In this document: one piece after another, positions 1,109-14,193 of the stretch | Layout: each line of letters opens with the position of its first letter | How positions within the stretch are numbered: position 1 is the first letter of the stretch | Source: a virus | DNA length: 21,007 nucleotides | IMG/VR virus record: IMGVR_UViG_3300025128_000425 | Span: 1 to 21,007 of that record | Strand: one strand, 5' to 3' | Notes under the pieces: model-generated | Seen by the model: the letters and a program-made list of their open reading frames with translations, nothing else | Told to the model about the DNA's origin: nothing | Database searches by the model: none | Made by a program: the position numbers and the translations under genes

Positions 1109-1348
1109 ATGGACATGAAGATGCTAAACCTAGAAGAATTCATGCAAGAACAAATTAGCGAGCGAGTAAAGGCCATGAGAAAACGAGAACGCAAAAGACT
1201 GGACAAGGTAAACAGGCACATGCCTGCTCGTAATCCCTTGGGCCAAGCCCTCTGGAACAAGGGACACACAGTGGAGGGATCAGGTACAAAATATAACAGG
1301 AAAAAATTAAAAAAAGCTGTTGACTTGTACCGAGAGGACCAGATATAA
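1109..1348 (+). CDS. hypothetical basic protein, 79 aa
   Basis: The ATG at 1109 follows CGGAG by about ten nt and comes three nt after the previous stop. The middle is very rich in lysine and arginine (VKAMRKRERKRLDK) and the C-terminal part is also basic (KYNRKKLKKAV). This suggests nucleic-acid binding, but no fold is recognised. The segment 'MPARNPLGQALWNKGHTVEGSGTKYNRKK' (given in two parts: NPLGQALWNKG, then KYNRKK) resembles short alarm-like phage peptides only loosely. The -35 and -10 boxes of the next promoter overlap its last ten codons and its stop codon. Confidence 0.55.
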   Translation: MDMKMLNLEEFMQEQISERVKAMRKRERKRLDKVNRHMPARNPLGQALWNKGHTVEGSGTKYNRKKLKKAVDLYREDQI

Positions 1349-1349
1349 A
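1320..1349 (+). promoter_or_regulatory. sigma-70 promoter, TTGACT-18-TATAAA
   Basis: The -35 box TTGACT (1320-1325) and -10 box TATAAA (1344-1349) match the consensus at five of six positions each and are 18 nt apart. An A-tract (about 1299-1315) precedes them. Expected initiation at 1356-1358 coincides with the first base of the structured RNA at 1357, so the promoter probably drives that RNA and the gene at 1490. Confidence 0.65.
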
Positions 1350-1356
1350 TCTAGAA

Positions 1357-1451
1357 GGTAAGGGGTTGGAGACGCGAACGGTGCACCGTATGAGAGGTCA
1401 CCGGGGTGGCTCATACCACCTAGCAAGGGGTTCGATTCCCCTTCCCTTACC
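1357..1451 (+). ncRNA. structured tRNA-like RNA with kissing-loop potential
   Basis: The ends close as GGTAAGGG (1357-1364) with CCCTTACC (1444-1451), plus a G-T pair. Inside is a canonical T-arm-like hairpin: AGGGG, loop TTCGATT, CCCCT (1426-1442). Hairpin 1 (1379-1403) has eight pairs with one bulged C (CGGTG/CACCG and ACC/GGT). Hairpin 2 (1405-1420) is GGTGG, loop CTCATA, CCACC. The loop of hairpin 1 contains TATGAG, an exact complement of the loop of hairpin 2. They could therefore kiss, or refold into one long stem GTATGAG/CTCATAC (1388-1394 with 1410-1416). Acceptor- and T-stems fit a tRNA with a long variable arm, but there is no D-arm, no normal seven-base anticodon loop and no encoded CCA. 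It may be a degenerate tRNA or a regulatory RNA. The gap contains no protein gene. Confidence 0.55.
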
Positions 1452-1462
1452 ACACCGCCACC

Positions 1463-1479
1463 GCTTAAACCAAACAAGG
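1463..1479 (+). repeat. leader motif GCTTAAACCWAACAAGG, copy 2
   Basis: This is the second copy of the motif at 336-352, differing only at its tenth base. It lies between the structured RNA and the ATG at 1490. Confidence 0.5.
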
Positions 1480-3482: not shown

Positions 3483-3665
3483 ATGTTTAAAAAAAACATA
3501 CCTTTGTCAGACGTTCTACGAATGACAGACCTAATGAAAGATGTAAGTATTGACAAGTATTCGCAAGAAGAATACAGACAAGTACTTAACGAGATCATGT
3601 ATATATCTATCACTGACTATGACCTAGAGGAGGTACAGAATGAACATCTTTTTTCTCCATCCTGA
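3483..3665 (+). CDS. hypothetical helical protein, 60 aa (68 aa from an upstream ATG)
   Basis: ATG 3483 is preferred because AAAGGA lies about 12 nt upstream and the start falls four nt after the previous stop. An in-frame ATG at 3459 would add eight residues and overlap the neighbour by 20 nt. The sequence looks like three helices (IPLSDVLRMTDLMKDV, SQEEYRQVLNEIMY). No family is recognised. The end overlaps the start of the next gene by 26 nt, and the next gene's strong ribosome site lies inside this one. Confidence 0.5.
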   Translation: MFKKNIPLSDVLRMTDLMKDVSIDKYSQEEYRQVLNEIMYISITDYDLEEVQNEHLFSPS

Positions 3666-4134
3666 TCCGCTCACCTCTGCCGAGATGCACTGTGATAAGC
3701 ACTGCGTCAAGATGATCCTAGAGACAGCGCAGATGTTATGCACTGCTCACAGAGCACTCGACGGTGACGAGCAAGCGGACAAGCTGGGCATGTACAAGAC
3801 TGCTCACCTCAATCACCCCTCTACCAAGTGGGTCAGAGGATCACTCCTGCAGTACGAATGGACCTATCACCTGTTCAAGTTCCTGTGCTCTGAGTACACC
3901 AGTAGGTACAACAAGGTACACTTGACAGATAAAAAATTAAAAGAAATTTTGCGTACACCACCGCACTCTATCACTGACAGCGGGGAGTACACTCAACCAC
4001 CACAGTGTATGCCTGATCAGTACAAGGTACCAGATGATGCTGTCAAGGCTTATCGAAACTACTACATAGGGGAGAAAGCATCCTTTGCTAAGTGGGCGTA
4101 CACACGTACACCAGAGTGGTGGACTGTTCATTGA
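3640..4134 (+). CDS. conserved phage protein with MHCDKHCVKMILE motif, 164 aa
   Basis: The ATG at 3640 has a strong site (GAGGAGG) seven nt upstream. The N-terminus MNIFFLHPDP and the block MHCDKHCVKMILETAQMLC match a family I remember as common in phage genomes and unnamed in function. Further conserved-looking segments are NHPSTKWVR, a long middle helix, MPDQYK, and a C-terminal GEKASFAKWAYTRTPEWW. The clustered histidines and cysteines near the N-terminus (H17, C18, H21, C22 region) could bind metal or form an active site; that is inference. The protein is soluble with no signal peptide. The stop overlaps the next TTG start. Confidence 0.65.
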   Translation: MNIFFLHPDPLTSAEMHCDKHCVKMILETAQMLCTAHRALDGDEQADKLGMYKTAHLNHPSTKWVRGSLLQYEWTYHLFKFLCSEYTSRYNKVHLTDKKLKEILRTPPHSITDSGEYTQPPQCMPDQYKVPDDAVKAYRNYYIGEKASFAKWAYTRTPEWWTVH

Positions 4135-8688: not shown

Positions 8689-9537
8689 ATGGTAGACAGC
8701 AAGATTGATTCTCTTCTGGTGGATATCAGCAGTCGTTTAGAAGAGGGTAAGGGACCAGCGAAGGACAATCTTGCTGTCTTCCTAGAAGAAATAAAGGAGG
8801 TGATGGAAAACTTTTTTGAAGAGAGTACCAACCGTGACAACAGGGGGAAGCTAAGACTATCAGCGGTTGGAAGAGAGGACAGAAAGCTCTGGTACGATTA
8901 CCACGGGTACGAGAAAGAACCTCTGAATACAGATGCGCGTATCAAGTTCTGCTTTGGTCATCTGCTAGAAGCTTTCGTCCTTCTCCTTGTCAAGGAAGCA
9001 GGTCACAGTGTAAAGGATTGTCAGAAAGAAGTAACAGTGGGGCAGGTCAAGGGACACATAGACTGTCTGATAGATGATGAGCTAGTGGATGTTAAGTCTG
9101 CCTCTCCCTATGGATTTAAAAAGTTTGTTGACGGGAGCATACTCAAGGGCGACGATCCCTTTGGCTACCTGTACCAGCTAAGTTCCTACGGTAAAGCACT
9201 GGGGAAAGAGAAGGGTTACTTCCTGTCCATTGACAAGAGCGGTGGAGGCCTCAACCTGCTAGAGGTACCACTGGACAGAGTGGACCCTGTTCAGAGAATA
9301 ACATACCTGAAAGAGATTATGCCCCATGATCTTCCCCCTGCCCGGTGCTACTCAGAGGTAGAAGAAGCATCAGGTAACAGGAAGCTGGGGTTCAACTGTA
9401 AGTACTGTGACTTCAAGTCAAAGTGCTGGGAAGATTCTAACAACGGACAAGGTCTCAGGAAGTACAACTACTCCCGAGGACCTGAGTACTTTACCCATGT
9501 ACAGCGGGAACCCAGAGTAGAGGAGGATTTCTTTTGA
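8689..9537 (+). CDS. PD-(D/E)XK exonuclease with Cas4/AddB-like cysteine pattern, 282 aa
   Basis: ATG 8689 starts three nt after the previous stop, with AAAGGA upstream. The nuclease core shows E94 (GHLLEAF), D125 (KGHIDCLID), D134-V-K136 (VDVKSAS) and a downstream Q163-x3-Y167 (QLSSYGKA), the usual layout of RecB/Cas4-like nucleases. C237-x2-C240-x5-C246 near the C-terminus, with C88 upstream of the core, matches the four-cysteine iron-sulfur pattern of Cas4 and AddB. In phages of this type the gene fills the place of T7 gp6: 5'-3' degradation of host DNA and processing of ends or primers. The next gene starts within its stop codon (TTGA). Confidence 0.85.
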   Translation: MVDSKIDSLLVDISSRLEEGKGPAKDNLAVFLEEIKEVMENFFEESTNRDNRGKLRLSAVGREDRKLWYDYHGYEKEPLNTDARIKFCFGHLLEAFVLLLVKEAGHSVKDCQKEVTVGQVKGHIDCLIDDELVDVKSASPYGFKKFVDGSILKGDDPFGYLYQLSSYGKALGKEKGYFLSIDKSGGGLNLLEVPLDRVDPVQRITYLKEIMPHDLPPARCYSEVEEASGNRKLGFNCKYCDFKSKCWEDSNNGQGLRKYNYSRGPEYFTHVQREPRVEEDFF

Positions 9538-10364
9538 GCGCCGCCCCTAGACCAGATCAATCTATCATACTGTCTTACCAAGAGTGTAAGTTCTGTTCCT
9601 CTCCCAACGGTTTTGTCTTCTATGACAGCCACGGTTACTGTTACACTTGTAATGAGGTATGGTTTGGAGAAGACTACGATCAAGCACTGGAGGATATGAA
9701 CGAAATGCACTGGACTTTTAGAGATGACAAGACACGGGTACCTGACCCTGATCACTACTTTGGTTTTGTTTACCTGATCACCAACAAGAAGAACCATAGG
9801 AAGTACGTGGGGTGTAAGCAGTACTGGCAGATGAGGCACAGGAAAAGGTACAAGCCTTCCAACTGGAAAGTATACACCTCTTCTTCCAAGGAACTGTGTG
9901 CTGACATAGAGAAGATCGGGAAGAGAAACTTTAAGTTTGAGATCATACAAGAGTACGAGACCAAGCGAGGCCTGCACTACTACGAGCAGTACTACCAGAT
10001 GAAGTACCATGTGCTCACCGCTGTGCTAGAGGGAACAGACCAGAAGGAATACTATAACAAGAACGTGGGAGGAGTCAGGTTCTATGTTCCTTTGGAAACA
10101 TATGAAGACCCGGCACATGGACGTGCGATTTCGGCGGCCATGTCTAAAGGTCCCTACAGAATTACCTTTGACACTGGTAGAGAAATTATCATTGACAACC
10201 TTAAAGGATGGGCGAAAGAAAACAATTATTACGATCAGTTACTTTATCACATATTAAATAAAACAAAAACTAAAAGAAATAAAAAAGATAAGAAAGCCTA
10301 TTTAAGAAAAAGACATAAAGATATCATAGGAGTGGAGCGTGTAACAAATGACATGGGGGAGTAG
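9534..10364 (+). CDS. GIY-YIG endonuclease with N-terminal primase-like zinc ribbon, 276 aa, TTG start
   Basis: TTG 9534 overlaps the exonuclease stop and has AGGAGG about eight nt upstream, so the non-ATG start is well supported. Residues 18-39 form a zinc ribbon (C18, C21, C36, C39) very like the zinc motif of gp4 primases, including SHGYCYTC. Residues 76-160 are a GIY-YIG nuclease: F78-V-Y80, Y91-V-G93, a central basic segment, and a late Glu in HYYEQYY. Residues 200-235 (DTGREIIIDNLKGWAKENNYY) resemble a NUMOD-type DNA-binding repeat of homing endonucleases. The C-terminus is very lysine-rich. It may be a free-standing homing endonuclease or a resident enzyme in the role of T7 endonuclease I. 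The last third is far richer in A/T than its surroundings. Confidence 0.85.
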   Translation: MSAAPRPDQSIILSYQECKFCSSPNGFVFYDSHGYCYTCNEVWFGEDYDQALEDMNEMHWTFRDDKTRVPDPDHYFGFVYLITNKKNHRKYVGCKQYWQMRHRKRYKPSNWKVYTSSSKELCADIEKIGKRNFKFEIIQEYETKRGLHYYEQYYQMKYHVLTAVLEGTDQKEYYNKNVGGVRFYVPLETYEDPAHGRAISAAMSKGPYRITFDTGREIIIDNLKGWAKENNYYDQLLYHILNKTKTKRNKKDKKAYLRKRHKDIIGVERVTNDMGE

Positions 10365-13436: not shown

Positions 13437-14126
13437 ATGGAAGTGACACTTATAAATCACATGGGTTCAGACCTCTCAGTGGTGAACGCTGCCAGAGTTT
13501 CCTTCTCCAAGGAATCTGAATGGGAGAGCGTCACCCCTGCTGGCCCTGTTAGTAACCTGCTAAAAGAATCAGACGAGAAGCTTATCAAGTACCTTGCCAA
13601 GCACAATCACTGGACTCCCTTTGGCCACTGCTCTGTCTCCTTCAGGATCAAGGCACCTATCTTTGTGGCCAGACAACTGGGCAAACATCAGGTGGGTCTG
13701 GTATGGAACGAGGTGAGTAGGAGATACGTGGATAGTCAACCTGAGTTCTATTACCCTGAGTACTGGAGAGGTAGACCCACTGATAAGAAGCAGGGAAGTT
13801 CTGAAGAGGAGGTGGACATAAACCCTTCCACAGGCACAGGTCCTTCTCTTCTGAGTGACTATGAACAAGCCATAAGGAGGTGCATGTGGACCTACGATGA
13901 ACTACTTAGGAAGGGGGTAGCACCGGAGATGGCACGTATGGTGCTACCCCAGAGCATGTTTACTGAGTGGTACTGGACAGGTAGTCTTATGGCCTTCAGC
14001 AGGGTGTGTTCTCTTAGGATTAAGGAAGATGTACAAGAGGAGACCAGAGACATTGCATCTTTGATAGACGTAGAGTGTGAGAAGCTTTTCCCCGTGTCTT
14101 GGGAACAACTGATGAAGCTTCCGTAG
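13437..14126 (+). CDS. thyX: flavin-dependent thymidylate synthase ThyX, 229 aa
   Basis: ATG 13437 follows GAAGGAA. ThyX makes dTMP from dUMP with FAD and methylene-tetrahydrofolate, and in phages it supplies dTTP during infection. The segment from R79 to Y97 (FVARQLGKHQVG, then LVWNEVSRRYV) matches the ThyX signature region, including N91-E92 and S94-x-R96-Y97. The usual RHR is here K83-H84-Q85, and the usual serine three residues after it is L88 with one extra residue before N-E, a form I recall from phage ThyX proteins. N-terminal VNAARVSFSK and C-terminal Arg-rich MARMVLPQSMFTEW are also typical. The stop codon lies inside the acceptor end of the tRNA gene. Confidence 0.9.
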   Translation: MEVTLINHMGSDLSVVNAARVSFSKESEWESVTPAGPVSNLLKESDEKLIKYLAKHNHWTPFGHCSVSFRIKAPIFVARQLGKHQVGLVWNEVSRRYVDSQPEFYYPEYWRGRPTDKKQGSSEEEVDINPSTGTGPSLLSDYEQAIRRCMWTYDELLRKGVAPEMARMVLPQSMFTEWYWTGSLMAFSRVCSLRIKEDVQEETRDIASLIDVECEKLFPVSWEQLMKLP

Positions 14127-14193
14127 CTCAATTGGATAGAGCAACAGACTTCTAATCTGTAGGTTGCAGGTTCGAGTCCTGCCGGGAGCGCCA
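14117..14193 (+). tRNA. tRNA-Arg (anticodon TCT)
   Basis: A complete 77-nt cloverleaf is present. The acceptor is GCTTCCG with CGGGAGC (one G-T pair), and the D-arm is GCTC...GAGC. The anticodon arm is ACAGA, loop CTTCTAA, TCTGT (TCT at 14151-14153). The T-arm is GCAGG, loop TTCGAGT, CCTGC. The discriminator is G, with an encoded CCA (14191-14193). It reads AGA, and AGG by wobble, codons that are frequent in these genes. It overlaps the last ten bases of thyX: the thyX TAG forms tRNA positions 8-10. Confidence 0.97.

Follow-up and report, generated by a model that had tools for sequence, protein, structure and literature searches.

In the marine phage DNA fragment analyzed here (21,007 nt; hereafter the window, i.e., this whole stretch), a sigma-70-type promoter that begins inside an upstream open reading frame (ORF) is followed by a 96-nt tRNA-like element and then by a downstream ORF (Table 1). 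The promoter described in the initial annotation, TTGACT-18-TATAAA, is present, with its two boxes at 1320-1325 and 1344-1349. For want of a final T in TATAAA, it escapes a simple promoter scan. In related marine phages, 22 distinct promoter segments all have TTGAC and TATAA unchanged, with a variable spacer between them; one of these segments (from L019) is the counterpart of another promoter of the window. About 20 related phages keep the promoter at 1320-1349. In the window, the pattern has two occurrences, where shuffles predict 0.02 by chance. The second occurrence, TTGACA-N18-TATAAA at 2821-2850, lies upstream of a gene around 2900 and is the one that has its counterpart in L019.

Table 1. 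Coordinates of the features at the promoter-proximal locus, with the basis of each assignment.
Feature	Position	Strand	Basis or remark
Sigma-70-type promoter, TTGACT-N18-TATAAA	1320..1349	+	Overlaps the end of the upstream ORF (1109-1348)
Predicted transcription start (A1356/G1357)	1356..1357	+	7-8 nt past the -10 box; inferred from promoter spacing
tRNA-like element, 96 nt, ending in encoded A73-C-C-A	1357..1452	+	Fold; phage tRNA model, 25.4 bits; Rfam tRNA-Sec, 25.1 bits (gathering 47)
5′ strand of the closing/acceptor-like stem, GGTAAGGGG	1357..1365	+	GGT pairs with ACC 1449-1451
110-nt segment that L003 and L128 lack	1358..1467	.	Empty site: GAAG joined to CAACAAACAAGG
Extra hairpin 1, CGGTG-c-ACC / GGTCACCG, loop GTATGAGA	1379..1403	+	Sits at the place of the D-arm; loop complementary to the anticodon-like loop
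Hairpin 2 (anticodon arm), GGTGG-CTCATA-CCACC, anticodon CAT, loop of 6 nt vs. 7	1404..1421	+	Covariance alignments; BLAST match to the Pyxpy01 tRNA-Met arm
T-arm, AGGGG-TTCGATT-CCCCT	1426..1442	+	Phage-tRNA model; 12.7 bits alone
3′ acceptor strand TCCCTT and ACCA end	1443..1452	+	Phage-tRNA model alignment
Downstream ORF, 119 aa	1490..1849	+	No Pfam or PHROG match

Judging from promoter spacing, transcription would start at the first base of the element or one base before its closing helix. The element does begin at the predicted start, as had been proposed, but it ends at A1452 and not at 1451, this last base completing the encoded ACCA. Its predicted fold is a four-helix, tRNA-like structure made of a closing stem of 8-9 bp, a weak stem, hairpin 1, hairpin 2 and a perfect T-arm, with a minimum free energy of -45.0 kcal/mol for 1357-1452; of 200 shuffles of the surrounding region 1350-1460 (z = -2.5), 197 are less stable than the native sequence and three fold as well as it does. 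The closing stem GGTAAGGG/CCCTTACC is perfectly paired and G1365-T1443 adds a ninth pair, which agrees with the nine-position pairing of the ends announced in the initial annotation; the T-arm-like hairpin is likewise perfect, and the two further hairpins, with loops containing TATGAG and CTCATA, are both present. Hairpin 2 is joined to the T-arm by TAGCA, a variable loop of normal length (5 nt).

Standard tRNA finders miss this element. Both ARAGORN, run on the window, and Rfam at its gathering threshold call only the tRNA-Arg at 14117, so that the element reaches neither an ARAGORN call nor the tRNA score of Rfam RF00005, and the earlier remark that no known RNA family is recognized in it holds at the Rfam gathering threshold. 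Its best sub-threshold family is tRNA-Sec (RF01852), at 25.1 bits against a gathering value of 47. A covariance model was built from 24 class I phage tRNAs, including the tRNA-Arg of the window and excluding the tRNA-Met of Pseudomonas phage Pyxpy01. With this model, the element is the second-best match in the 21-kb window (25.4 bits; E about 2.6e-5, on a rough calibration), after the true tRNA-Arg, itself in the model, at 86.8 bits and ahead of the next-best noise at 11.7, and its proposed tRNA-like character is thereby borne out. In the alignment to the model, a CAT anticodon arm is followed by TAGCA and the T-arm, then by a 3′ acceptor strand that lacks one base, and lastly by ACCA. The T-arm gives 12.7 bits by itself, so that a like amount comes from the remaining parts of this parse, mainly the anticodon arm and ACCA, while the 5′ half alone does not score as a tRNA. 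The tRNA-Arg (TCT) itself, at 14117-14193, is an ordinary one that overlaps the end of a thymidylate synthase ORF; three relatives (L027, L032 and L035) also carry a tRNA-Arg (TCT), and L027 a tRNA-Ile (TAT) as well.

The T-arm has the TTCGANT loop of tRNAs, but the anticodon loop, CTCATA, has 6 nt instead of 7, and no D-arm follows a 7-bp acceptor 5′ strand: the interval between the acceptor and the anticodon arm, 38-39 nt against the usual 19 or so, forms hairpin 1. Furthermore, the ACC of the encoded ACCA pairs with the 5′ GGU in the predicted fold. The initial annotation was right that this is not an ordinary tRNA; it was also right that the D-arm is absent and the anticodon loop abnormal, by one base, although the anticodon arm itself does exist, as hairpin 2. 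Its suggestion of a decayed type II tRNA (Leu/Ser/Tyr) is not supported, since in the tRNA-Sec and the phage-tRNA alignments alike the CTCATA hairpin takes the position of the anticodon arm, and no long variable arm is found. A selenocysteine tRNA was considered too, given that RF01852 is the best Rfam match and that both have a long continuous acceptor and T stack, and was rejected: the score lies far below gathering, the loop is CTCATA, and there is no UCA anticodon, no long variable arm and no Sec D-arm. From its sequence, the element would best be read as the 3′ half of a class I, CAU-type tRNA (tRNA-Met/Ile2) on an abnormal 5′ half. Indeed, the nearest phage sequence is the Pyxpy01 tRNA-Met, with a BLAST match of 89.7% over the anticodon arm and T-arm, its arm GGTGG-CTCATAA-CCACC differing from that of the element by one loop base. 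With phage class I tRNA-Met/Ile2 such as this one, the element shares the anticodon arm, the T-arm, the variable region and the ACCA end, and it departs from them in the 6-nt loop, in the longer stretch whose hairpin replaces the D-arm, and in the pairing of its 5′ GGU to ACC.

At the same locus, the element is found in four contigs of one phage cluster, namely the window, L082, L005 and L083. The copy in L082 is identical to that of the window, and a single substitution, A1395C, carried by L005 and L083, is the only difference among the four. Two close relatives of the same cluster (L003 and L128) have instead an empty site, in which the promoter is followed by GAAG, CAACAAACAAGG and then the gene, and more distant relatives also lack the element. 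This distribution is most simply explained by a gain, and the element is best read as recently acquired, by insertion at position +1 of a phage promoter. Between the window and L005, 1 of its 96 positions differs, against 139 of 1791 flanking positions (7.8%), a rate that predicts about 7.4 changes in the element (P about 0.005, Poisson); this would suggest selection on the element. However, the spacer next to it (1453-1489), with 1/37, has diverged as little, so that the element is not specially conserved relative to its immediate neighbor, and a recent exchange could be the cause of the low divergence.

Outside the cluster, scans with the 5′ block, with the arm bearing the 6-nt loop and with paired TATGAG/GCTCATA plus a T-loop, together with BLAST searches in phages and plasmids, returned only ordinary tRNAs or chance matches. 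For an attP copy of the 3′ end of a host tRNA, one would expect an identical stretch in a host tRNA gene together with a phage integrase; a strict pattern search of 85,000 genomes gave no host tRNA with a matching stretch, and no integrase was recognized among the window ORFs examined. A literature search gave no phage tRNA pseudogene or tRNA-like RNA matching the element. As to the 5′ half, its alignment as an inverted duplication of the 3′ half scores better than shuffles (P = 0.0014), and hairpin 1 aligns with the reverse complement of hairpin 2 at P 0.0002, both hairpins being stem-constrained; ordinary tRNAs give 0.006-0.02 in the former comparison because acceptor pairing alone creates such a signal. 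An origin by inverted duplication is a possibility.

A conserved promoter, an insertion and a tRNA-like 3′ half (T-arm, CAU arm and encoded ACCA) come together at this locus, and we lean, with modest confidence, towards a tRNA-derived RNA, closest to class I tRNAs with a CAU anticodon (Met or Ile2), which was inserted at +1 of the promoter and is probably non-decoding. The fold energies, which strongly favor the tRNA-like cloverleaf, support this reading, as do the clean insertion with respect to close relatives and the promoter kept in relatives without the element; the low Rfam score, the missing ARAGORN call and a 5′ half without tRNA signal go against it. Given the predicted start position, the operon mRNA would open with 96 nt folded into a compact tRNA-like domain, where pairing of the 5′ GGU with ACC would bury the CCA end. 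Since this pairing is combined with almost no 5′ leader, the RNA should be a poor substrate for RNase P and for aminoacylation; its 6-nt anticodon loop and the replacement of its D-arm also argue against decoding. Altogether, the buried CCA, the six-base loop, the absence of a D-arm and a transcript predicted to begin at the closing helix speak for a structured RNA of tRNA origin rather than for a translation adaptor. Its most economical role would be that of a stable tRNA-like 5′ end protecting the operon message; alternatively, it might be cut at its 3′ side and persist as a stable tRNA mimic or small RNA.

The serious rival is a functionless tRNA gene in decay: a tRNA-CAU acquired by the phage would have lost one base of its anticodon loop, gained about 18 nt between the acceptor and the D-arm, and persisted by chance. 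We regard this as rather unlikely, even if such a history would fit the single bases missing from the anticodon loop and from the T-stem/acceptor junction, the presence/absence polymorphism inside a single cluster, and the fact that neither IMG/VR nor, by pattern, the 85,000 genomes yielded a homologue sharing the 5′ half. Closing stem, hairpin 2 and T-arm are perfectly paired, hairpin 1 has only one bulge, the element has changed far less than its flanks, and its sole change keeps or extends a stem, all of which speaks against decay. The shortened CAU loop and the paired CCA would also suit a decoy or nuclease-resistant mimic absorbing or evading a host tRNA-targeting defense of the VapC, PrrC, PtuAB or AriB type. 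Phage tRNAs are known to counter such defenses (PMC11555353) and to carry changes in anticodon-loop cleavage sites (PMC10264068); nevertheless, the published cases are near-normal tRNAs, and we hold such a role here improbable. As for a genuine decoding tRNA of unusual shape, to which the T-arm, the CAU arm, the 5-nt variable loop and the encoded CCA would be proper, it is hard to reconcile with the 6-nt anticodon loop, the missing D-arm and the pairing of CCA with the 5′ end, as well as with an acceptor and T stack of 11 pairs instead of 12, should the RNA really end with the encoded CCA, and we give it almost no credence.

The initial annotation had also put forward a leader switch, in which hairpins 1 and 2 would kiss, or refold into a long stem, and regulate the gene at 1490. 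The complementarity of the loops TATGAG and CTCATA is exact, as claimed, and would arise by chance in about 0.1% of cases (a 6-nt loop inside an 8-nt loop); the position of the element at the 5′ end of the predicted transcript would also be appropriate. However, ordinary T5-type tRNA-Met genes have the same complementarity between GTATGAGC in the D-arm and GCTCATA in the anticodon loop (in L086-L115, in most of the records found), so that it need not mean a kissing interaction or a device. The alternative stem 1388-1394/1410-1416 is exactly complementary too, but the two exclusive folds are not comparable in energy: the fold containing that stem reaches -38.3 kcal/mol, 6.7 kcal/mol worse than the optimum, and its predicted pairing probability is 0.0. 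The ribosome-binding site of the downstream gene lies outside the element and is about equally accessible with it (0.60-0.69) and without it (0.70), no terminator is predicted on the + strand, and A1395C extends hairpin 1 into its loop, leaving only 4 nt. A switch is for these reasons very unlikely; moreover, relatives that lack the element share the promoter and genes, and the two hairpins abut without a linker, which would strain a 6-bp kiss. A more exotic idea, which we consider far-fetched, is a tRNA-mRNA mimic in one molecule, where UAUGAG of hairpin 1, containing AUG, would face the CAU loop as an internal codon-anticodon pair at the transcript start; if true, it might interact with the ribosome of the host or with enzymes that bind tRNAs.

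The evasion of tRNA-cleaving defenses is a role with which phage tRNAs are linked more and more often. The likeness of the element to anti-defense tRNAs such as the T5 tRNA-Tyr acting against retron-Eco7 (PMC11555353) is only general, that of a tRNA behind a strong phage promoter; those are functional tRNAs, whereas the element is a candidate non-decoding RNA. With tRNA gene fragments and non-canonical tRNA genes (PMC9897764) it shares a partial tRNA sequence in mobile DNA; in those fragments, however, the 5′ half is absent, while here it is replaced and a closed, full structure is formed. A promoter-proximal tRNA-derived RNA, seemingly non-decoding and nearly unchanged between diverged lineages, would be a simple case in which to test for roles of phage tRNA genes outside translation.

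Among the ORFs examined in the window, which is a fragment, no integrase was recognized; the ORF at 9534-10364, between replication genes, contains a GIY-YIG-like motif (YLITNKKNHRKYVGCKQY) and is possibly a homing endonuclease. In L147, a pattern search revealed, around 3596-3740 of the reverse strand, tandem T-arm-like units resembling GGTTCGAATCGGGTGGGTCTCA.
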